In this document: positions 2,115 to 29,059 of the stretch, one piece after another | How the letters are laid out: every line of letters starts with the position of its first letter | How positions within the stretch are numbered: position 1 is the stretch's first letter | NCBI GenBank assembly: GCA_031271165.1 | Contig: JAISWF010000046.1 | Coordinates: forward strand, 1 to 35,788 | DNA: 35,788 nt | Direction of reading: 5' to 3' | Origin: Deltaproteobacteria bacterium | GTDB lineage: Bacteria; Desulfobacterota; Desulfarculia; Adiutricales; Adiutricaceae | Translations under genes and position numbers: made by a program | The notes under the pieces: model-generated | Told to the model about the DNA's origin: nothing | Databases searched by the model: none | What the model saw: only the letters and a program-made list of their open reading frames with translations

Positions 2115-2999
2115 ATGAAAGCCTCTTTTATCGGCTTGGGCCGCATGGGGGGCCACATGGCCCGCCGAGTTTTGCTTAACAAGCTCCCCCTGGGAGTCTA
2201 TAACCGCAATCAGGAAAAAGCCAAGCCTTTAGCTGCCGACGGAGCCGAGGTCTTTTCCTCGCCGCGAGATGCCTACCGAGACGCAGAACTCTTCATAACC
2301 ATGGTCTCTAACGATTTCGCCCTGAACTCACTGACAACTCCCCAGGACCTGACCCTCATGGCCCCTGGCGGAGTGCACGTTTCAATGAGCACAATCAGTG
2401 TCGAACTCTCCGACGCCCTCACCGCCCTTCACGCTTCACTCGGCCAGGCTTTCGTAAGCTGCCCGGTTTTCGGCAGGCCGCTGGCTGCCGAAGCCGGGAC
2501 TCTCAACCTGTGCCTGGCCGGACCACAGGATGCCAAAGCCAAAGCCGCCCCGTATCTGGCGACCATGGGCAAAATTTTCGACTTTGGCCTCAAGCCCTCC
2601 GGGGCCAACTCCGTTAAACTAGCCGGCAATTTTATGCTGGCCACCCTCATTGAAATGCTCTCAGAAGCCTTTTCGCTGGTCGACAAACACGGAGTAACCC
2701 CCCTGTCCTTTTTTGACCTCATCTCGACCACCAATTTCAGCGCTCCAGCCGTGAAAATTTACGGCCAGCTCCTTTTGGACAATAGCTTCGGCCCAGGTGG
2801 TTTTTCGGCAGCCTTAGGTGCCAAAGACATCGGCTTGGTCAAAGCGGCCGCCAAAAACAGCCTGACCCCAATGCCGCTGGCCTCGACCCTCGAAGATCGC
2901 TTTTTGAGGATCCTAGCCCGAGGTTGGGAGGATAAGGATTGGTGTGTCTTGGGACAAATCCAAAAGGAGGACTCAGGCTTAGCCAAACCCTCGGTTTGA
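2115..2999 (+). CDS. NAD(P)-dependent oxidoreductase of the 6-phosphogluconate / 3-hydroxyisobutyrate dehydrogenase-like family
   Basis: N-terminus MKASFIGLGRMGGHMARRVLLNKLPLGVYNR (GxGxMG). C-terminal GANSVKLAGNFMLATLIEMLSEAF...FGPGGFSAALGAKDIGLVKAAAK matches the family. Start moved to ATG 2115 because of the upstream AAGGAG; the longer ORF from 2031 is unlikely. Confidence 0.85.
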   Translation: MKASFIGLGRMGGHMARRVLLNKLPLGVYNRNQEKAKPLAADGAEVFSSPRDAYRDAELFITMVSNDFALNSLTTPQDLTLMAPGGVHVSMSTISVELSDALTALHASLGQAFVSCPVFGRPLAAEAGTLNLCLAGPQDAKAKAAPYLATMGKIFDFGLKPSGANSVKLAGNFMLATLIEMLSEAFSLVDKHGVTPLSFFDLISTTNFSAPAVKIYGQLLLDNSFGPGGFSAALGAKDIGLVKAAAKNSLTPMPLASTLEDRFLRILARGWEDKDWCVLGQIQKEDSGLAKPSV

Positions 3000-3087
3000 G
3001 TTCTTTAAATGGCCAGCTGACTCAGGCTGGGAGAACCGATGGCTTAGGCTCATTAAGCGGCTAGAAACTCCTCGGCTGCCGATACCA

Positions 3088-3132
3088 TTCAATAAAAAAA
3101 CCGGCTCTCCAAGGGCCGGTTTTTTTATTGAA
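3088..3132. terminator. Bidirectional intrinsic terminator between convergent genes
   Basis: TTCAATAAAAAAACCGGC-(tctccaagg)-GCCGGTTTTTTTATTGAA: 18-bp perfect stem with A-tract and U-tract, between the + gene ending at 2999 and the - operon ending at 3297. Confidence 0.9.
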
Positions 3133-3296
3133 TTTTTAAGATTTTCCGAAGGTTTTTTCGGTTTCAAAATAACCAACCGATTAGGCCGGTCTAAAAGCTC
3201 CAGTAAGTTGACGGATTAACTTTTAAGGTTAAAAATTTAAAGACTCTTAAATAGTTCCGGCCAGAGTTTATCGCCTTAATAAAAGGACTTCAAGTT

Positions 3297-3572
3297 TCAG
3301 TGAACCAACGGCCAAACGGAAAACAAGTCACCGGCCCGGCGGTAAGCCGCAGCCGGCATAAGATCGGCCGCTTCCAGAACCGGCAAAATGAGATCCCGAT
3401 CGCTTTCCAAAAAACTGATTGCCAGTCCACAGTTGGGATTCACTTCTTTGGGCACTGGAACCAAAATGAAAGGCAGATTTTTTTCCTCTAAAAGATCTTC
3501 AGCGTTAAGGATCTTAGTATTGGAACTAAATACCAAAATAATTTCAGCCACGTCCATGGCCGCTTCCTTCAA
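3297..3572 (-). CDS. DUF3343 family protein (putative Se/S carrier-like)
   Basis: Short protein: EIILVFSSNTKILNAEDLLEEKNLPFILVPVPKEVNPNCGLAISFLESD. Overlaps the upstream aminotransferase stop by 4 bp. Start may be M1 or the internal M6. Confidence 0.75.
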   Translation of the reverse strand: MKEAAMDVAEIILVFSSNTKILNAEDLLEEKNLPFILVPVPKEVNPNCGLAISFLESDRDLILPVLEAADLMPAAAYRRAGDLFSVWPLVH

Positions 3573-4714
3573 TTACGCCTGGCCAAGGCCAGTTCATTTA
3601 AAGCATCAGCAGCTATAATGACTTCGCTGACAGTGTTTTGAGGACCGAACGAAAACCTGACTGAACCGCCGGGAAAAGTACCAAGATGCTGATGAGTTAA
3701 AGGTGCGCAGTGGAGCCCGGCCCGGGCCATAATCCCATAGTTCTTCTCCAGAGCCGCCGCCAGATCAGAGCTTGACCAGCCTGAGAGATTGAAGCTGACC
3801 GTGGACACCCGTTGTCCTCCGCCTAGCCCGGGGCCGAAAAGCTGAATTCCGTCAATGCCGGCCACCTTTTCCAAAAAGTTGGTGGTCAGCTGCTCCTCTC
3901 TAGCCCGAATGGCCTCCACCCCGGTCGCCAAAACCCACTCTACCCCAGCGGCCAAACCGGCCAGGCCGTGAGTGTTGGCAGTCCCAGTTTCCAAGGCGTC
4001 AGGCAAAAAATCAGGATGCTCCAGACTCTCTGAGCGGCTGCCACTCCCGCCCACGGCCAGCGGCCTTAACTCCAGTCCAGGCCTGACCCACAGCCCGCCA
4101 GTTCCGGTTGGGCCCTGAAGTCCTTTGTGGCCGGTAAAGGCCAGAAGGTCAATTTTCGAACCGTAGTCAGTCATCGGGATGGCCCCAGCGGTCTGGGCAG
4201 CGTCCAAAAGAAGCGGTATTTCACCCACCACCTCTTTAATCTCCAAGGCCGGAGCCAAGGCCCCACTGACATTACTGGCGTGATTTAAAACAACCAGCTT
4301 CGTTTGGGGTCTAAGGCGGGCTGCAAAATCGGAAGCAACCATGGCCCCATCCCTTGGCGGGACGACCTCCCAATCCAGCCCGATCTCCTTGACCAGCCTG
4401 GCCAAAGGCCGGGCAGTGGAGTTGTGCTCCAGAGCGCCGCTTAAAACATGATCTCCTCTTTCCAGACCCAAGCCGGACAGGGCGGCGTTGATGGCCCAGC
4501 TAACATTGGGAGTGAAAACCAAGCGGCTGTTGTCGGACAAACCAAAGATCTTGGTGACGGCCTTTCTAGCCCGATGAACGGTCCGGGAGGCTTCCAGCGA
4601 AGGAGTATGACCACTGCGGCCGGGACTGGCTGGGGCCTTAAGGGCCGCTACCACCGCCTCGATCACCGCCACCGGCTTGGGAAAGGATGTTGCCGCATTA
4701 TCAAAATAAATCAT
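3569..4714 (-). CDS. Class V aminotransferase, cysteine desulfurase-like (TIGR01977-type)
   Basis: MIYFDNAATSFPKP start; PLP-lysine region LLAFTGHKGLQGPTGTGGLWVR; active-site Cys region GIMARAGLHCAPLTHQHLGTFPGGSVRFSFG. Confidence 0.9.
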   Translation of the reverse strand: MIYFDNAATSFPKPVAVIEAVVAALKAPASPGRSGHTPSLEASRTVHRARKAVTKIFGLSDNSRLVFTPNVSWAINAALSGLGLERGDHVLSGALEHNSTARPLARLVKEIGLDWEVVPPRDGAMVASDFAARLRPQTKLVVLNHASNVSGALAPALEIKEVVGEIPLLLDAAQTAGAIPMTDYGSKIDLLAFTGHKGLQGPTGTGGLWVRPGLELRPLAVGGSGSRSESLEHPDFLPDALETGTANTHGLAGLAAGVEWVLATGVEAIRAREEQLTTNFLEKVAGIDGIQLFGPGLGGGQRVSTVSFNLSGWSSSDLAAALEKNYGIMARAGLHCAPLTHQHLGTFPGGSVRFSFGPQNTVSEVIIAADALNELALARRN

Positions 4715-5607
4715 GTTCCGGCCTCTGCGCTGAGACTTTGGGCCTGATTTCGGACCTCCTGAGGGAGGAAGGCCTCCAAGCAGGCCAAGAGATCTTTAAT
4801 GTTAACCAATTTCATATTGGGGCAGAAAACCTCAACCTCGGTCTCGTAAAACCGGCTCCCGGGAAACGCCTCCCTGAGTGATTCGGCCAGTCCCGTCTCG
4901 CTGACGATCAGGTAGCTGCCACCGGGAGCGGCAGCACACCAGTCAAAAATAGCCTGACTATCGCCGACAAAGTCAGCCAGGGCCCTGACCTCAGGCCGGC
5001 AAAGAGAATTGGCGGCTATTTTGGCTCCAGCCGCTTGACTCAAAGCTAGCCGGATGTCTTGAGGGCCCACCTGTTGATGGACCTGACAGACCGCCCCGGG
5101 CCAATCAAAATGAGGCACCCGATCGGGATTGCCCCCGGATAGGGCCGGCAGCACATGTACCGACCGACGATCAAAATCCGGCGGCCACAGCGGCTCCCCG
5201 GTCAACACCAAATCGGCTAAATCTCTGACGGCCGCCGAAGCTTTGATGTCGGCCACGATCAGTGGCCTGACTGGACCAGAGCAAGACCGGCGAACCATCT
5301 CGACTTCCTGGGCCCCGACCGAGTCGCTGAAGGGACAACCGGCGTCTTTTCTGGGCACCAAAAATTCCAGATCCGGCCGGAGCCGCTCCATGGCCCCAAG
5401 CATAAATTCCACACCACAGACCATGATCGCCCGGGCCCTGGTCTTAAGAACCCAGTCGTATAGCCCCCGGCTTCCGCCCACATAATGGGCCAGGGCTTTG
5501 ACCTCAGCCCGTTGATAGAAATGGGCAATTATCTCAACGTCACCGGCTTCGGCCAACATGCTGACCCGGCGGGCCTGGGCCAATTTTCTTTCACTAATCG
5601 CACCCAT
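4711..5607 (-). CDS. Quinolinate synthase NadA-like protein (divergent)
   Basis: IIAHFYQRAEVKALAHYVGGSRG, VCGVEFMLGAMERLRPDLEFLVPRKDAGCPFSD, GAVCQVHQQV and VFCPNMKLVNI retain the NadA architecture and three Fe-S-type Cys positions. Start set at M22 (5607), just after the upstream gene's stop. Confidence 0.75.
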   Translation of the reverse strand: MGAISERKLAQARRVSMLAEAGDVEIIAHFYQRAEVKALAHYVGGSRGLYDWVLKTRARAIMVCGVEFMLGAMERLRPDLEFLVPRKDAGCPFSDSVGAQEVEMVRRSCSGPVRPLIVADIKASAAVRDLADLVLTGEPLWPPDFDRRSVHVLPALSGGNPDRVPHFDWPGAVCQVHQQVGPQDIRLALSQAAGAKIAANSLCRPEVRALADFVGDSQAIFDWCAAAPGGSYLIVSETGLAESLREAFPGSRFYETEVEVFCPNMKLVNIKDLLACLEAFLPQEVRNQAQSLSAEAGT

Positions 5608-5611
5608 GGGC

Positions 5612-6256
5612 TTACCAACGCACCGCAACCACCATGAAATAGATGTCGGTGGATATGTTGAAGCGCCCAACGGTTTTAAAACTCAAGAAATTGGAATAAC
5701 GATCCCGGAGATCGTTGACATCATCATAATAGCGCACTGAACCTTCTTTTGGAAACCTGGGCATGGAAAAAAGAATTGGTTTGCCAGAGGGGATAATCCC
5801 AACAAGGCCCAGATCGTCATCAATAACATCAAGTACATTGAGAAGCAAGTAAGCCTCAAAGCGCTCATAGTGCTGAATGACCTGAGGCGATGTAAAATCA
5901 CCGTAAATGAAGTTCCATCCCGGATAGGCCGCCTTGGCCGTTTGAATTGCCCCATGGCTTTTGTCGACCCCCAAGTAGACTTCCGGCCTCTGGCGCCGCA
6001 AAACCATCACCCCGGTAAAATTGCCGCACCCACAGCCCAGATCGGCGACGTTGGCGATGTTCATCAGCCCAAGCCGGCCATAAGCGTTCTCATACATGGT
6101 CAAATCATAGGGCGGCAAGGGGACTGGTTCGGCCTTGGCCTGACCGGGGACAGGCCCGGGAGTCAATCCGCCCTGACTCCTGACGGTCAGAAGGTTGGCA
6201 GGATTGTTTAACAGCGTGTTGGGATTAAAGGACATTTTATCTCCAAACGGCGGCAC
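5612..6256 (-). CDS. Class I SAM-dependent methyltransferase
   Basis: Motif I VADLGCGCGNFTG, followed by VYLGVDKSHGAIQTAKAAYPGWNFIYGDF. True start may be the internal MSFNPN. Confidence 0.75.
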   Translation of the reverse strand: MPPFGDKMSFNPNTLLNNPANLLTVRSQGGLTPGPVPGQAKAEPVPLPPYDLTMYENAYGRLGLMNIANVADLGCGCGNFTGVMVLRRQRPEVYLGVDKSHGAIQTAKAAYPGWNFIYGDFTSPQVIQHYERFEAYLLLNVLDVIDDDLGLVGIIPSGKPILFSMPRFPKEGSVRYYDDVNDLRDRYSNFLSFKTVGRFNISTDIYFMVVAVRW

Positions 6257-6260
6257 CGGC

Positions 6261-7217
6261 TCAAACCAACACCGACCTCACAACGTGGCAGTCGCAGGGA
6301 CCCACGTTGGCCTTGAAATACTTGAGAGTGGACTCCAAATCGTAACGCTGGAAACGGGGATCGTGCCTGAAAACCTTCTTGGCCTGGGTAAAGTCGCCCA
6401 AGCAGCCCCCCTCGGCCCTCATCTCGGCCTGAAGGGCTTCCCGAAAAATTTTCCAATCCTCGTGCTCGCCGATGGTCAAAATCAACTCCGGACGTTTGAC
6501 GTCGGTGTCGTCTTTGAGCTCCTTGGCTTCCTGGTAGTAAAAGTGCTCAGCCAGACCTTCCAGGATGACCTCCCGGCCGCTTTGACTGTCAGTACCAACC
6601 AGCTTATAAATTTGGCTGCGACCTTCCTGGCCGTCAATGAGCTTTAAAACAGCCAGCATGAGTTTTTCCAGCCTCTCGCGGACAGACAAACCCTCAGCCA
6701 TGGTAAAAAACTTGATTCCCAGCCACAACGAATCAATAAATGCCTTCATGGCCCCGACGTTGTCGGAATTGTCCAGGAGCATCTTGGCTTTGTCAGGCTT
6801 GCCCATGTTGATGAATACCTGTGCCAGGCGTCTGATGGTGGGAAGATCGTCTGGCCGGAAAGACAAAATGGTCTGAAGCTCCTTGACTGCACCACTCCAT
6901 TTGCCCTCCACGCTGTAGACCTCGGCGAGGTTATATCGGGCTTCCAAAAAATCAGGCTTGATTTCCACCGCCTGCTTTAGACAACTTTTGGCTCTGGCTC
7001 CGTCTCCGGAGGCCATATGGGTTACAGCCAAATTGTTCCAGGCCTGAACATTTCCGGGGCATTGTTCAATGGCCTTTTCAAAAAGCGCCTTGGCCTCGGA
7101 CAGAAACCCGTCACCAAACATCTTTTCGCCTTCAAGAACCAGGTCCAGATCCGGGTCCTCCAAAGGATGGTGTTCAAATATCCTATCGGGCAATTCGGTT
7201 ACGTTCTGATTTTCCAT
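6261..7217 (-). CDS. TPR-repeat protein with a distinct C-terminal domain ending CDCHVV (DUF2695-like?)
   Basis: AKALFEKAIEQCPGNVQAWNNLAVTHMASGDGARAKSCLKQAVEIKPDFLEARYNLAEVY TPR repeats. C-terminus STLKYFKANVGPCDCHVVRSVLV. Confidence 0.75.
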   Translation of the reverse strand: MENQNVTELPDRIFEHHPLEDPDLDLVLEGEKMFGDGFLSEAKALFEKAIEQCPGNVQAWNNLAVTHMASGDGARAKSCLKQAVEIKPDFLEARYNLAEVYSVEGKWSGAVKELQTILSFRPDDLPTIRRLAQVFINMGKPDKAKMLLDNSDNVGAMKAFIDSLWLGIKFFTMAEGLSVRERLEKLMLAVLKLIDGQEGRSQIYKLVGTDSQSGREVILEGLAEHFYYQEAKELKDDTDVKRPELILTIGEHEDWKIFREALQAEMRAEGGCLGDFTQAKKVFRHDPRFQRYDLESTLKYFKANVGPCDCHVVRSVLV

Positions 7218-8633
7218 GGTTCACTCCTCTTTAGTCCGGGCAGGCAATAATTACCGCACAAAGCCCCGGCGGTATCCAATCTTGCAAATCCGGTGCCACT
7301 ACTACCAAAGAATCCAAAATCCTTTGAGAGAAATCTATAATTCTTCGTTAGTGGTGACTTGGGTTAACCCGCCTTCCAAAAAGGCACCTAAAGGATTGAA
7401 GGAATTAAGAACTGACCATTAACTTAATAATGACCTAAGGTTTTAGAACCCAATAAACCTCTGGCCGTCAAGAACTAAACTTCAGGTCAAGCCCGGCCAT
7501 ACCGGCGGCTTTTTTTGACCAAAGCCTTGAGTGGCCCTTGACCAAATCCTAATTCAACTTACCCTCAAATCATCAAAAACCGACCAGCCCAATCCTCCAG
7601 AACCTCTGAGCCAAAACTGCCGGCTGCTGTCCCGACCCGGAAGATTCTGCCCAGGGTCAGATTGTGTTAAGCAAAAACGAGGCCTAAAAAACTGAACCAT
7701 TAATTTAAGGTGGACGTCCTATCAATGGGTCTTTTGAGATAGGGCTAAAGGCTAATTTATTTCGACCTGAGGAGGGAACGTACAAAAAATGATAAAAAAA
7801 TGTTATGATCGCTGCGGTAAAGTCAGAGTTCGGCCAAAGGGCTCTTCCTATTTCTTTTTCTTTTAGAAACAAGCCAAAAAACCTCTGGCTTTAGCTAGTT
7901 ATAATTAGCTTCTAAATTTCCTAAAGTCTCGAAATTTTAAAATTTGTGCTTTGGTTAGAACAATTTTTATAGGCACAACTAATTACAATAATATATTCTA
8001 AACAGAAAACAAAGCGATTTATTCGCCTTATTACTGGCTAACAACATAATTTGCAAGATAATTTACAAATTTAGCCTTGAAAATTAGCTTACCCACCGCC
8101 AGCCCACAGGTTGTTCTTGATTTCTTTAAAATCGGACTTTAACTTGCACTATTACTTTTTATCGATATAGATTCTCAACCAATATTAAATATTTAAATCG
8201 GGACGATATACAACTTTTTTGTATCTATATAAATATAAAATATTGGGTAAAGACCCAAACAGAGCTTTAAGCAGCGCATTTAAACAAAAACTGGACAATA
8301 TTATGGTTCCTTAGCACACCCAAACCGGCTACCGCCAGCAGTCAATTAAGATCTCGGCCCAAAACATTTACAATAAGGCTGGCTAAATAACCGGATAAAC
8401 ATGATAAAATTGCCCCACCCAGGCCCCAATCCAAGTTGGACGGTGTGGATTTGCTGATAAAGCCGATAACATCGGCCTGATAATAGTCTTAGCGACTAGC
8501 CGGCTATTTTGGTTGAGCCCAAGAGAGGCGACCTTAGCGGCCTTAATCAAAGGGGAGACGCTCAATGGCCAAGGAGTTTTCAAGGAGTTATTGACTATTG
8601 CCAACCACTAGTGATTTTGGTATAGTCCGCAAA

Positions 8634-8920
8634 TTAACAATCGCCGGCGCCAGCTGACCAACGGCCCCGAGCTTTTTCCAGGATTGCCGGTTGGTCAGGG
8701 TCGATGTGGCTGCCGCCACAGACCTGAATGCCGCTTAAACCATACAGGCTTTTAAAATAACTTAGCCATGGCGGCGAGGTCGGCCCAGCTGCCAAGACGC
8801 CCAGAAGACCAAAATCAGTTTTTTGTAAGTCTTCTGGGACATCGAAATTGGGATCGCATATTTTCTGACACCACGCGGACAACCGGACAAAGCCGGGTGT
8901 ATAAGGAAAATTATCCTTAT
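8634..8920 (-). pseudogene. Possible decayed flavodoxin-like gene fragment
   Basis: Reading frame ...PYTPGFVRLSAWCQKICDPNFDVPEDLQKTDFGLLGVLAAGPTSPPWLSYFKSLYGLSGIQVCGGSHIDPDQPAILEKA looks protein-like and locally GC-richer, but has no proper start and runs into the lipoprotein leader. Confidence 0.3.
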
Positions 8921-8967
8921 TTGTGTCTTTTTATGTTGCATTTACTGCAATTTTTTCTGGAGGAACC

Positions 8968-9264
8968 ATGAAAAACGGCTTTTTAAAACTATGTTTGCTA
9001 TTATCTGTCGCCCTTCTGGCCGGACTGCTGGCCGTAGCCTGCGGCGATTCTTCGTCAACTTCCACCTCAGCTCCAGCTGCTGCTCCAGTTGCTGCTCCAG
9101 CTGCTACTCCGGCTCCTGAAGCTGCTCCGGCTACTCCGACTCCTGAAGCTGCTCCGGCGGCTGGTGAATCTACCCCGGCGGCTGAAGAAACTGCTCCGGC
9201 AGCCGATGAAACGGCCCCGGAGGCTGATAAAGCAGACCCGGCTGAGGCTGCCCCAGCTGAATAA
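8968..9264 (+). CDS. Small Ala/Pro/Glu-rich lipoprotein
   Basis: Signal peptide MKNGFLKLCLLLSVALLAGLLAVAC with lipobox Cys, then SSSTSTSAPAAAPVAAPAATPAPEAAP...; strong RBS (ggagga) 5' of ATG 8968. Confidence 0.75.
   Translation: MKNGFLKLCLLLSVALLAGLLAVACGDSSSTSTSAPAAAPVAAPAATPAPEAAPATPTPEAAPAAGESTPAAEETAPAADETAPEADKADPAEAAPAE
9113..9157 (+). repeat. Direct repeat (27-nt period) inside the lipoprotein gene
   Basis: CTCCTGAAGCTGCTCCGG at 9113-9130 and again at 9140-9157. Confidence 0.7.
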
Positions 9265-9520: not shown

Positions 9521-10168
9521 ATGACTTATCGTGCCGCTATTTTCGATTTGGACGGTACTATCCTCAACACCTTGGATGATTTAGCTGACAGCCTCAATGC
9601 GGCGTTAGTCTACCTGAAACTGCCGGCACTCGAACTCGAAACCGTTCGCCAGATGATCGGACATGGCCTTAACAATCTCATTGAAACCGCCTGCGACGGT
9701 CGTTGCCCGGTTGAAATCCTCAAAGTTAATTTTAAAAACGAGTACCGCCAAAGACAGCTCAACAAAACCGTTCCTTACCCAGGCATCCGCAATCTTTTTG
9801 AACGACTCGCTGACCGCCGATGGGCCCTGGGAGTGCTGTCCAACAAAGACCATGAAAACACTAAGACTATCGTCGAACATTATTTTCCCGGCGCCTTCCA
9901 AATCGTCCAAGGGGCTCTGCCGGATCTCCCTCTCAAGCCCGATCCGGCTGCAGTGATTGAAATGGTCAAAAATCTGGAAGCGGCTCCCCGCGAGACAATC
10001 TATGTCGGCGACAGCGCCGTCGATATTCTCACGGCCAAAAACGCCAACCTAACTCCTCTTGGAGCCGCCTGGGGCTTCAGAACCAAAACCGAACTCATCG
10101 AAGCTGGTGCGGCGGCGGTATTTGACCGACCAATCGATATTTTGGAATATATCGGTTATGTTCGTTAG
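9521..10168 (+). CDS. gph: HAD-superfamily phosphatase, phosphoglycolate phosphatase-like
   Basis: AIFDLDGTILNTLDDL, GVLSNKDHENTK, LKPDPAAV, YVGDSAVDILTAKNA. Confidence 0.85.
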   Translation: MTYRAAIFDLDGTILNTLDDLADSLNAALVYLKLPALELETVRQMIGHGLNNLIETACDGRCPVEILKVNFKNEYRQRQLNKTVPYPGIRNLFERLADRRWALGVLSNKDHENTKTIVEHYFPGAFQIVQGALPDLPLKPDPAAVIEMVKNLEAAPRETIYVGDSAVDILTAKNANLTPLGAAWGFRTKTELIEAGAAAVFDRPIDILEYIGYVR

Positions 10169-10177
10169 GAGTGTTCA

Positions 10178-10891
10178 ATGTCAAAACTGCCTCAAAAACC
10201 TCGGCTCATCGCTCGCCAGCCGAACGCCCCGCCGCCGCCTTGGGCCGTCGATCCCGATGGTCTTCTAAAAACCAGGCCGGGCTCGATCAAAGCCGCCTTA
10301 ACCGGCGGCATTGCTTCGGGCAAATCCTCGGTAGCTGAGCTTTTCGTGGCCTTTGGAGCCGGACGGGTAGATTTTGATGCTTTATCCAAAAAAATTTTGG
10401 CTCCGGACTCTCCCTACTTGGCTGCAGCCGCCGCACTCTTTGGACCTAAGGCCATCAAAGATGGCTCTCTCGACCGCCGATATGTAGGCAAGAAGGTCTT
10501 TAAAGACCCAAAACTCAGAAAAGCTTTGGAGGACATCGTCCATCCGGCGGTCTGGTCCCTGATGCTTGATGAGCTTAAATCAGCTGAAAGCCGGGGACTA
10601 ACGATCATTGAAGTGCCGCTTTTGTACGAAGCCGCCCTCGACTCCCTCTTTGAGCCGGTCATCGTCTGCTTTGCCAAACCCGAAACTCAGCTCAAACGTT
10701 TGCGGGAACGTAACCCTGAACTGGGCCGCTTTGAGGCCCGAAGAAGGCTCAAGGCCCAAATTCCAATTTTTGAAAAAATCCGGCGCGCCAACATCGTCAT
10801 CAATAATGACGACGACTTGCCCCGGCTCATTGCCAGTACCAGGCAGGCTTGGGAATACCTTTTTCCTGACAAGGGAGTACCAGTCCAGTGA
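10178..10891 (+). CDS. coaE: Dephospho-CoA kinase with a short N-terminal extension
   Basis: AALTGGIASGKSSVAELFVAFGAGRVDFDALSKKIL (P-loop and DAD-like region), LEDIVHPAVW, EVPLLYEA. Confidence 0.9.
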   Translation: MSKLPQKPRLIARQPNAPPPPWAVDPDGLLKTRPGSIKAALTGGIASGKSSVAELFVAFGAGRVDFDALSKKILAPDSPYLAAAAALFGPKAIKDGSLDRRYVGKKVFKDPKLRKALEDIVHPAVWSLMLDELKSAESRGLTIIEVPLLYEAALDSLFEPVIVCFAKPETQLKRLRERNPELGRFEARRRLKAQIPIFEKIRRANIVINNDDDLPRLIASTRQAWEYLFPDKGVPVQ

Positions 10892-26158: not shown

Positions 26159-29059
26159 TTACTGGCGGACTTCCCGGAGGATTTTAGCTGCCGGAGCCTC
26201 GTCTCTGACCACCACCAGCTGAGTCTGGTCTGCGGGCATAAGGTTGCGGGCAAAGCCCGATCGATGGGAAGTCATATCAGCAGCGGGACGTATCTGAGCC
26301 TGAGCTATCGCCCGACCCGGCGAGGGGATTCTGATGGTCGGAGGTAAAATCCGGCTGCTCGGGCTGGTGCTTCTGGTCACCGCTGGCGAAGGCTGGACCG
26401 CAACCGGGACCACATCGACCTCATGGACCTCATCGACATGAACCAAAGAGGCCGATGAGTCGGAGGGCTGGAGCTTGGACGGCGGGAAGGGAACCTGCGG
26501 CAGCTGAGTAGAAGCGGGCCTTATCTGGGGCTGGCTGGCGCCTGGATTGACCGGGATGGTCTGGGCGAACGGAGTATCGGATTTGGTGACCGGACGGATA
26601 ACCGGCTGACCGGCCCCCCCATTACCTCCGCTGCCATTAGAGGGAACGGCCGGGGTCCCGGCCTCGGCGGCCGACTTTTTAGCGGCCAGTCTAGCCAGCG
26701 CTGAGGGCTTAGAGGCTGTAGCCACATTAGCCCCGCCGACGGCCCCAGCTTTGGAAGCCTGGGCAATGGGCCGGCTGGAGGTTGGAGCAGTTCCGGCCGA
26801 GCCGACCGTGGCCGTCAGCTGGTTGACGTAAGTACGTTCCAGCTCAATACGGTTTTGCATCATTTCCGAGAGGCGATTACTTGATTCATTGAGCCTTAAC
26901 ACCAAGGTGTCGATGATCTGCTTTGAAATATCAGGGAAGTTCTCCAAAACCTCTCCGAGTTTATCGCCGGGGAAGACCTTGACAATGCTCCGTCCCTTGC
27001 TTCTGATGGTGGCGCTGCGTCGGGAGCCAACCAGCGAACTCATTTCACCAAAATAGGTGTTGGTCTGGGAAATCTCAGCGATCAGGTTCTGGCCTTTGAA
27101 GACCTCCAGGCAGCCTTGAATAAGTTTGTAAAAAGAGGTGTCGGTATTGCCCTCTTTGATAATGGTGTCGCCGTTTTCAAAGACCATTTCATCGGGGTTA
27201 AGCAAATAGTGCGGCAGGCTCTCTTTTTGAATAACAGTTTTCTCCAGCACCTGGTCGAGAGTGGTCATACCCTGCTGGCACTTGAGCAGTCCATCTTGCC
27301 TTAGGGTATACATGCCTTCTTTCAAGGCAATTTTTCTAAGGTGACCTTCGGGGACTTTGGAGGCGATGGCGTCGGAAATGGGCGGCGTATTTTCCATGAC
27401 CTCAAAGACGCCCAAGCGGCCTTTGTAGCCGGTCCCTTTGCAGGTGGGGCAGCCGCGGCCCTCATAAAGCTGGATGCTGGCCACTTCTTTAGAGTCAAAA
27501 CCGGCTTCCATAAGCTTATTGACTGGAAGCTTGGCCATAGGCTGCTTGCAGTTGGGGCAGACTCGCCTCAGGAGCCTCTGGGCGGAGCAGACAACCAGAG
27601 CGGCAGCGACGTTGAAGGGAGCTACTCCCATGTCCACCAGACGGGTAACGGTGGAGGGGGCGTCGTTGGTGTGAAGGGTCGACAGGACCAAGTGGCCGGT
27701 CATGGCCGCTTCCACTGCAATTTCGCCGGTCTCCAAATCTCGGATCTCGCCGATCATACAAATGTCAGGATCCTGACGAAGGAAGGCCTTCAGGGCCCTG
27801 GCAAAGGTCATGCCTACATCTTTGATGACGTTGACCTGGTTGACCCCAGGAAAGTTGAATTCGACCGGGTCCTCAGCGGTGAGAATCTTCACGTCATCGG
27901 TGTTGCGCAATGACAACGTAGAATAAAGGGTAACTGTCTTGCCGCTACCGGTAGGTCCGGTCACCAGTAAAAGTCCGTTGGGACGGTAGGCGGCCCGCAT
28001 AAACTGGTCGAGGTTCTTTTGGGTAAACCCCAATTTGGTCATATCCACGTTCAGGCCAGATTTGTCTAAAATACGCAGAACGACCGATTCCCCGAACAGA
28101 GTCGGCAAGGAGCTAACGCGGAAGTCGATTTCCTTATTTTTGCCCAGACGCATCTTGATGCGGCCGTCCTGGGGCACCCGACGCTCAGTGATATCAAGGC
28201 TGGCCATGATCTTCAGGCGGGCGATCAGGGCGTTTCTGATTTCCAAAGGCAGTCTGGTGTGCTTGTAAAGCGAGCCATCAGTGCGGTACCGGACGTAGAA
28301 CTGTCTTTCAAAAGGTTCAATGTGAACGTCGGAGACGCCCAGCTGAACGGCCTGGACCAGGATCTGGTTGGCCAAGTTAATGATGGCACTGTTTTCAGCC
28401 GAGTACGAATCATTAGTTGCTTCCTCATCTTTGGCATCACCGAAAGAAAAGTCATCCAAAGCATCGGAAATAAGGGCTCCGAGGTTGTCAACAGTTACCG
28501 GGCCCGAATCATCAACTACCGCCGTCGGGTCCAAAGGCGCAGTTATACTCGCTTCCTCAGCATCATCAATTTTATAATGCTGCTTGAAAGCATTGATCAA
28601 ATCACGCTCGGTGATAACTGCCGGACTTATCTGGAGCTTGGTCTGACTGGCGAACTCTTCAACCAACTTATTATTGGTGGGTTCAACCATGGCCACCAAC
28701 AATTTGTTGTCCTTAACTTGATAAGGAATGGCCATAAAACGGCGGGCCATATTGTATGGGACCAGCTCCAGCAAATTTTTGGGGAGCTCACGCTCGTTGA
28801 GGTTGACCATGGGGTAACTGTACTGCCTCGACAGCACACTGGGAATAGTGTTACCCTCAACATAACCTTTGCGAAGTAAAAATCGTGAGATGGAGTCGGT
28901 TGGATGGCTTTTAAGCCATTTAGTGGCTTCCTCCAGGTGGCCCCTGGTAATCTGTCCCGCCTTCAAAAGATATTCACCCAGAATCAGTCGAAAATGATCT
29001 GAACTCTGATCTTTGATGGTGCCAGACAGGGTTGAACGGCGACGGGATATTTCTGCCAT
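26159..29059 (-). CDS. GspE/PilB-type secretion/pilus ATPase fused to a cyclic-nucleotide-binding domain and a Pro/Ala-rich tail
   Basis: MshEN-type N-terminus; VTGPTGSGKTVTLYSTL, DPDICMIGEIRDLETGEIAVEAAMTGHLVLSTLHTNDA, CPNCKQP...CPTCKGTGYKGRLGVFEVM; then VFENGDTIIKEGNTDTSFYKLIQGCLEVFKGQNLIAEISQTNTYFGEMSSLVGSRRSATIRSKGRS (cNMP domain). Confidence 0.92.
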   Translation of the reverse strand: MAEISRRRSTLSGTIKDQSSDHFRLILGEYLLKAGQITRGHLEEATKWLKSHPTDSISRFLLRKGYVEGNTIPSVLSRQYSYPMVNLNERELPKNLLELVPYNMARRFMAIPYQVKDNKLLVAMVEPTNNKLVEEFASQTKLQISPAVITERDLINAFKQHYKIDDAEEASITAPLDPTAVVDDSGPVTVDNLGALISDALDDFSFGDAKDEEATNDSYSAENSAIINLANQILVQAVQLGVSDVHIEPFERQFYVRYRTDGSLYKHTRLPLEIRNALIARLKIMASLDITERRVPQDGRIKMRLGKNKEIDFRVSSLPTLFGESVVLRILDKSGLNVDMTKLGFTQKNLDQFMRAAYRPNGLLLVTGPTGSGKTVTLYSTLSLRNTDDVKILTAEDPVEFNFPGVNQVNVIKDVGMTFARALKAFLRQDPDICMIGEIRDLETGEIAVEAAMTGHLVLSTLHTNDAPSTVTRLVDMGVAPFNVAAALVVCSAQRLLRRVCPNCKQPMAKLPVNKLMEAGFDSKEVASIQLYEGRGCPTCKGTGYKGRLGVFEVMENTPPISDAIASKVPEGHLRKIALKEGMYTLRQDGLLKCQQGMTTLDQVLEKTVIQKESLPHYLLNPDEMVFENGDTIIKEGNTDTSFYKLIQGCLEVFKGQNLIAEISQTNTYFGEMSSLVGSRRSATIRSKGRSIVKVFPGDKLGEVLENFPDISKQIIDTLVLRLNESSNRLSEMMQNRIELERTYVNQLTATVGSAGTAPTSSRPIAQASKAGAVGGANVATASKPSALARLAAKKSAAEAGTPAVPSNGSGGNGGAGQPVIRPVTKSDTPFAQTIPVNPGASQPQIRPASTQLPQVPFPPSKLQPSDSSASLVHVDEVHEVDVVPVAVQPSPAVTRSTSPSSRILPPTIRIPSPGRAIAQAQIRPAADMTSHRSGFARNLMPADQTQLVVVRDEAPAAKILREVRQ

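Follow-up and report, generated by a model that had tools for sequence, protein, structure and literature searches.

A precedent for dedicated sulfur supply to a protein with the fold of quinolinate synthase (NadA) is plant SufE3, in which the sulfur carrier SufE is fused to NadA and the NadA domain works only with SufE, an example of cluster supply (PMC5890173). TIGR01977-type desulfurases and DUF3343 proteins, in turn, have been linked to selenium genes, in a set that also includes YedF (PMC2276186, PMC5322559). Here, we analyzed a window of 35,788 nucleotides, located on contig C123 of a draft deltaproteobacterial genome (G000; 3.72 Mb, 283 contigs, 82% complete), in which five open reading frames (ORFs) on the minus strand run from position 7217 to 3297 ahead of a strong terminator. 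They encode a tetratricopeptide repeat (TPR) protein, a methyltransferase-like protein, a NadA-fold protein (NadA2), a TIGR01977-type cysteine desulfurase-like enzyme and a DUF3343 protein. Like SufE3, this operon would give a NadA-fold enzyme a partner of its own to accept sulfur from a cysteine desulfurase; however, SufE3 is an active quinolinate synthase using SufE, whereas the operon consists of separate genes, has a DUF3343 protein for SufE, and lacks the quinolinate synthase active site. We consider it reasonably probable that the operon provides a private sulfur relay for a repurposed (neofunctionalized) [4Fe-4S] enzyme built on the NadA fold.

Comparison of NadA2 with NadA (PF02445, TIGR00550) revealed a common architecture around a substantially different active site. 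The AlphaFold2 model of NadA2, a confident one (predicted local distance difference test [pLDDT] 88), displays the three-domain fold, and its best PDB matches are all NadA, with template modeling (TM) scores mostly of 0.75–0.80. While the protein matches PF02445 with 143 bits, it falls far below the NCBIfam NadA equivalog cut-offs (109 vs 262.9 bits and 137 vs 294 bits). In an alignment of 32 NadA2 with 27 canonical NadA sequences (Thermotoga numbering via 4p3x), the cluster cysteines Cys81, Cys168, and Cys254 correspond to C91, C174, and C262 of NadA2 and are invariant in 32/32, and the equivalents of His19, Tyr21, His171, Met257, and Lys258 are invariant or almost so. In contrast, Tyr107, Asn109, His193, Glu195, and Ser209, which are kept in 27/27 canonical NadA, are largely or entirely replaced. 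In all 32 NadA2 sequences Tyr107 has given way to Asp, Gly, Glu, Gln, or Thr, Asn109 to Lys (31/32, with Arg in one), Glu195 to Leu or Met, and Ser209 to Asp, and His193 is Asn in 28, with His retained in four. The Asp35 equivalent is Gly, and that of Ser124 is likewise among the residues replaced or lost. We take Tyr107, Asn109, His193, and Glu195 to serve NadA substrate binding and the triose-phosphate step. Since the residues for this step and for iminoaspartate binding are gone, NadA2, as judged from its residues, is not a quinolinate synthase. Charged residues are newly fixed at two columns of the former active site (Lys122 and Asp216) and beside a cluster cysteine (Glu259), and in a tree (roughly rooted) NadA2 forms a single clade with a support of 1.0 on a long branch.

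The retention of the iron–sulfur (Fe–S) site, the loss of the catalytic residues and the pairing with its own sulfur-delivery proteins suggest that NadA2 probably catalyzes a reaction different from that of quinolinate synthase. We found no description of such a NadA paralogue in the papers searched, and we know of no NadA-fold protein that has been shown to carry out another reaction. As a conserved paralogue under selection, with its active site rebuilt and a sulfur donor of its own, NadA2 makes it possible to test how function changes in site-differentiated [4Fe-4S] enzymes. Annotation pipelines will tend to label NadA2 as quinolinate synthase, a name that is almost certainly mistaken across the entire family.

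The sequence-only reading of this locus had held that the NadA-fold protein of a dedicated operon is not the enzyme of nicotinamide adenine dinucleotide (NAD) synthesis, and both the changed active site and the genomic context bear this out. The operon is unlinked to nadB or nadC, and G000 encodes canonical nadA (contig C12, positions 9842-10780; 310 bits, TIGR00550), nadB (C241; 573 bits), and nadC (C46; 311 bits) elsewhere. Canonical nadA was also found in nearly all NadA2-bearing genomes. In G026 (3 contigs, 93% complete), neither a canonical nadA nor a nadB match was found, while nadC, NadA2, and its desulfurase are kept; NadA2 would therefore be independent of the NAD pathway in this genome, of which about 7% may be missing. 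With nadC but neither nadB nor canonical nadA, G026 may live by salvaging quinolinate or nicotinate.

The full order TPR–methyltransferase–NadA2–desulfurase–DUF3343 is kept in 22 genomes from nine genera (g1, g2, g3, g5, g7, g8, g9, g10, and g11) of a single family of uncultured gut bacteria, f1 (in one of them the TPR gene is truncated by a contig end), a recurrence that rules out chance. By inference, f1 corresponds to the Adiutricaceae, putatively acetogenic termite-gut Desulfobacterota (PMC9137090). Across these genomes the operon proteins share 36–80% identity, and the flanking genes are housekeeping genes that vary more than the operon. In a tenth genus, g6, the operon is split, with the NadA2–desulfurase pair together in six genomes; the two genes are neighbors in every genome with an assembled flank, including those in which the remaining operon genes are dispersed. 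NadA2 thus has strongly conserved linkage with both a cysteine desulfurase and a Se/S-carrier-like protein, in support of the sequence-only reading. All five genes are under purifying selection, with ratios of nonsynonymous to synonymous substitution (dN/dS) of 0.05–0.43 where synonymous sites are unsaturated, a rough estimate. NadA2 orthologues occur in nearly all f1 genomes; the single genome of genus g4 (61% complete) gave no NadA2 match, and since all genomes are drafts, such single gene absences are weak evidence. Among 395 genomes sampled from the phylum, the NadA2 profile scored at least 384 bits within f1 and at most 235 bits elsewhere, confining NadA2 to f1. An exact-peptide-pattern scan of GTDB contigs, the only search beyond the phylum, recovered three named relatives, all of them metagenome-assembled genomes under the name 'Deltaproteobacteria bacterium'. 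In G003, the NadA2 frame (L040, G003:C7:18587-19414) contains one TAG stop, reflecting either an assembly error or a decaying gene.

The desulfurase keeps two residues that the Group II cysteine desulfurases (SufS and CsdA) and the selenocysteine lyase SclA also conserve, the pyridoxal phosphate (PLP) lysine (K197) and the catalytic cysteine (C336); both are invariant in 13/13 orthologues and align to the corresponding positions of SufS-type enzymes. It differs from these proteins in belonging to the TIGR01977 branch, and it lies well below the SufS (196 vs 475 bits) and SclA (292 vs 525 bits) cut-offs. The enzyme of the window itself scores 373.6 against a TIGR01977 cut-off of 377 bits, and all 13 orthologues match this family (best E-value 2e-120); its match to PF00266 reaches 228 bits. 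The DUF3343 protein passes the PF11823 gathering cut-off (55.5 vs 25 bits), and its C43-G44 pair is invariant.

In the relay that we propose, the PLP enzyme would remove sulfur from cysteine and hold it as a Cys336 persulfide, and Cys43 of the DUF3343 protein would ferry it to NadA2 as the receiver. As in NadA, Cys91, Cys174, and Cys262 of NadA2 would ligate a [4Fe-4S] cluster that leaves one iron free to bind substrate. The delivered sulfur might be used for building or repairing this oxygen-sensitive cluster, which appears somewhat more likely, or for insertion into a product. The methyltransferase and the TPR protein would be accessory: the methyltransferase probably methylates either the product or some protein or RNA target, while the TPR protein probably serves as a scaffold. 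A private relay to NadA2 is supported by the invariance of the desulfurase Lys and Cys, the DUF3343 Cys-Gly, and the cluster cysteines, together with the strict NadA2–desulfurase adjacency. Several points weigh against it. In g6 the DUF3343 gene is missing from the operon, although one of this type is found at another site in the genome, and the cluster could also come from the general Fe–S assembly machinery, with no need of a private relay. NadA2 also evolves faster than its operon neighbors, which could fit a non-catalytic role as well, and in G026 the key Lys of NadA2 is Arg and His193 is kept, making this protein somewhat closer to NadA.

The accessory genes raise the possibility that two unrelated modules merely share a promoter, namely a flagellum-linked protein-modification module (TPR–methyltransferase) and a metabolic one (NadA2–desulfurase–DUF3343). 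In G038, a genome of another family without NadA2, a DVU0524-family gene, flgM, the TPR gene, and the methyltransferase gene follow one another on one strand (L116, G038:C305 880-3336), an arrangement suggesting that the TPR–methyltransferase module may be flagellum-linked. In g6, the TPR–methyltransferase half precedes fliF in G026 (L114, G026:C1), and the TPR gene adjoins fliL-fliM in G022 (L151, G022:C185). The NadA2–desulfurase half follows flhA in G013 (L054, G013:C64; FlhA confirmed) and, by synteny, in G006, and it follows gltX in G018 and G030. Moreover, both TPR and methyltransferase genes are absent from G013 and G018, which retain NadA2–desulfurase. Since the halves can be split, and TPR–methyltransferase lost, in g6 and the TPR–methyltransferase pair occurs without NadA2 in G038, the core of the operon is NadA2–desulfurase–DUF3343, from which TPR–methyltransferase is separable. 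On the other hand, a single rearrangement best explains the flagellar contexts in g6, as if a flagellar cluster had come to lie between the operon halves, all five genes stand together in nine genera, and co-occurrence with fliF is uninformative because fliF is present in nearly all genomes. We retain, from the earlier proposal of one dedicated five-gene pathway, the dedicated operon with its kept order, while the idea of a single pathway is weakened by the independent movement and loss of TPR–methyltransferase. Two unrelated modules remain a serious though not a favored alternative, one compatible with the sulfur relay as far as the core is concerned.

Beyond its repeats, the TPR protein carries an invariant EGGCLGDxTQ and a C-terminal GPCDCH, in which the CDCH (12/12 aligned orthologues) agrees with the CxCH terminus noticed earlier. 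This C-terminal half has no Pfam family match, and its model is of low confidence, with a structure search matching the TPR repeats only. Among 45 relatives, the TPR protein is limited to f1 and G038; the methyltransferase profile likewise matched f1 genomes and G038 only. The methyltransferase conserves its DLGCGxG motif in 12/12 orthologues, scores 24.2 bits against a Pfam FtsJ cut-off of 24.1 (other Pfam matches being under cut-off), and gives weak superfamily matches only in PDB and NCBIfam. Its assignment to the DVU_1556 family was rejected (24 vs 155 bits).

As to what the core might do, a tentative extension of the relay would make NadA2 a new enzyme class on the NadA fold, catalyzing an undescribed condensation or sulfur insertion in which the Lys at the former Asn109 position and the open [4Fe-4S] iron act together while the private relay feeds them persulfide; the pathway would be restricted to a single family of gut bacteria. 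More narrowly, NadA2 may be a sulfur-inserting enzyme whose open iron binds sulfide from the relay and passes it to a small molecule or tRNA, with the methyltransferase then methylating the sulfur. [4Fe-5S]-type thiolases are thought to transfer cluster-bound sulfide. In the sister families (G037, G039, and G040), a desulfurase–DUF3343 pair orthologous to that of the operon comes after YedF (the two examined score 216 and 223 bits against TIGR03527, whose cut-off is 110), so NadA2 occupies the place of the sulfurtransferase-like YedF, a sulfur-acceptor position. In addition, the operon-type DUF3343 gene of g6 (L150, L152, and L146) adjoins mnmE, a tRNA-modification gene, in G006, G013, and G026, and the operon includes a methyltransferase. 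However, the mnmE context reflects a single event within a single genus, NadA2 can persist after loss of the methyltransferase, and no tRNA-binding or adenylating domain was found, leaving this sharper form of the relay as an outside chance. The same g6 site has a neighbor that is QueH-like by sequence, not confirmed by NCBIfam.

Alternatively, NadA2 could be a degenerate, non-catalytic NadA paralogue serving as a scaffold or sensor for the desulfurase. Its lost catalytic residues and its rate of evolution, the fastest of the five genes, would agree with this, but none of the 32 sequences departs from the three cluster cysteines or from several of the pocket residues, and the charged residues that have arisen anew are invariant as well. 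This pattern fits a site that has changed, not one that has been lost, and we consider degeneration improbable.

The sequence-only reading had left selenium open as the traffic of the operon, and this half of the proposal did not hold. The case for it begins with the published association of both protein families with selenium genes and with the sister families, in which the orthologous pair follows YedF, a selenium-metabolism family, in the same order and in selD-bearing genomes. The operon differs from that set in having NadA2 for YedF, an extra TPR protein and methyltransferase, and no selD dependence. Specifically, of 28 f1 genomes screened for true selD, 13 have it, and it was not found in the others, which include 11 genomes that keep the operon (G000, G002, G005, G008, G009, G011, G012, G015, G016, G020, and G023), some of them 91%, 93%, and 96% complete; nor was selD found in any sampled operon-carrying member of g2, g8, and g9. 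Two selD-positive genomes that were examined, G006 and G026, have a separate desulfurase–SelD–YedF–DUF3343 cluster with divergent paralogues. For both reasons a selenium role of the operon is unlikely, and its full form, a selenocysteine lyase and Se carrier serving NadA2 as a selenium-handling protein, has very little to recommend it. A likely history is that an ancestral YedF–desulfurase–DUF3343 set, which perhaps served selenium, lost YedF, gained NadA2, and now works without selD. The desulfurase–DUF3343 pair is usually taken as a selenium marker; since it persists without selD, its presence should not by itself be taken as evidence that selenium is used.

Finally, that NadA2 is a second quinolinate synthase isozyme is hardly credible: it has the fold, the cluster cysteines, and the NadA family match, and G026 and G007 keep nadC with no other NadA detected, but its equivalog scores, the replaced catalytic residues in all 32 orthologues, the canonical nadA of nearly all NadA2 genomes, the concurrent lack of nadB in G026, and a nadA gap in G007 that is probably due to assembly, as its congeners have canonical nadA, all speak against it.

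Table 1. Features of the NadA2 operon and its terminator in the window.
Feature	Position	Strand	Remarks
TPR protein, 318 aa	6261..7217	-	TPR repeats at about residues 26-150, then a lineage-specific C-terminal half
Class I S-adenosylmethionine (SAM)-dependent methyltransferase-like protein, 207 aa	5612..6235	-	DLGCGxGNF motif
NadA2 (NadA-fold protein), 298 aa	4711..5607	-	C91/C174/C262 kept, quinolinate synthase catalytic residues replaced
Group II cysteine desulfurase-like PLP enzyme (TIGR01977-type; class V aminotransferase), 381 aa	3569..4714	-	Lys197 and Cys336 invariant
DUF3343 / Se_S_carrier protein, 86 aa	3297..3557	-	invariant VPKEVNPNCGLA motif
Intrinsic terminator	3088..3132	.	20-pair stem and T tail; between the operon and the convergent gene 2031-2999

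All five genes and the strong terminator were recovered where they had been described, and the domain assignments proved correct (PF02445, PF00266, PF11823, and TPR repeats), that of the methyltransferase resting on weak SAM-methyltransferase matches. The junctions, described as 4-bp overlaps or gaps of about 4 bp, needed slight revision because the starts conserved across orthologues differ. The 4-nt NadA2/desulfurase overlap and the 4-nt methyltransferase/NadA2 gap stand, while the TPR/methyltransferase and desulfurase/DUF3343 gaps are 25 and 11 nt, respectively; the methyltransferase starts at the ATG at 6235, from which MxFNPNQLLNN is conserved in orthologues. No known RNA or riboswitch was found in the window at Rfam gathering thresholds. 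The approximately 1.7 kb upstream of the operon (7218-8900) showed no convincing gene and no Rfam family match, and 20 terminator-like sites lie within 2900-9000, about twice the 10.8 expected from shuffling. In genus g7 (L046 and L047), genes resembling a sulfonate/nitrate-type ABC importer, as judged by eye only, lie upstream of the operon. Elsewhere in the window, a long minus-strand ORF (26159-29059) resembles, again by eye only, a GspE/PilB-type ATPase with a cyclic-nucleotide-binding-like C-terminal part.

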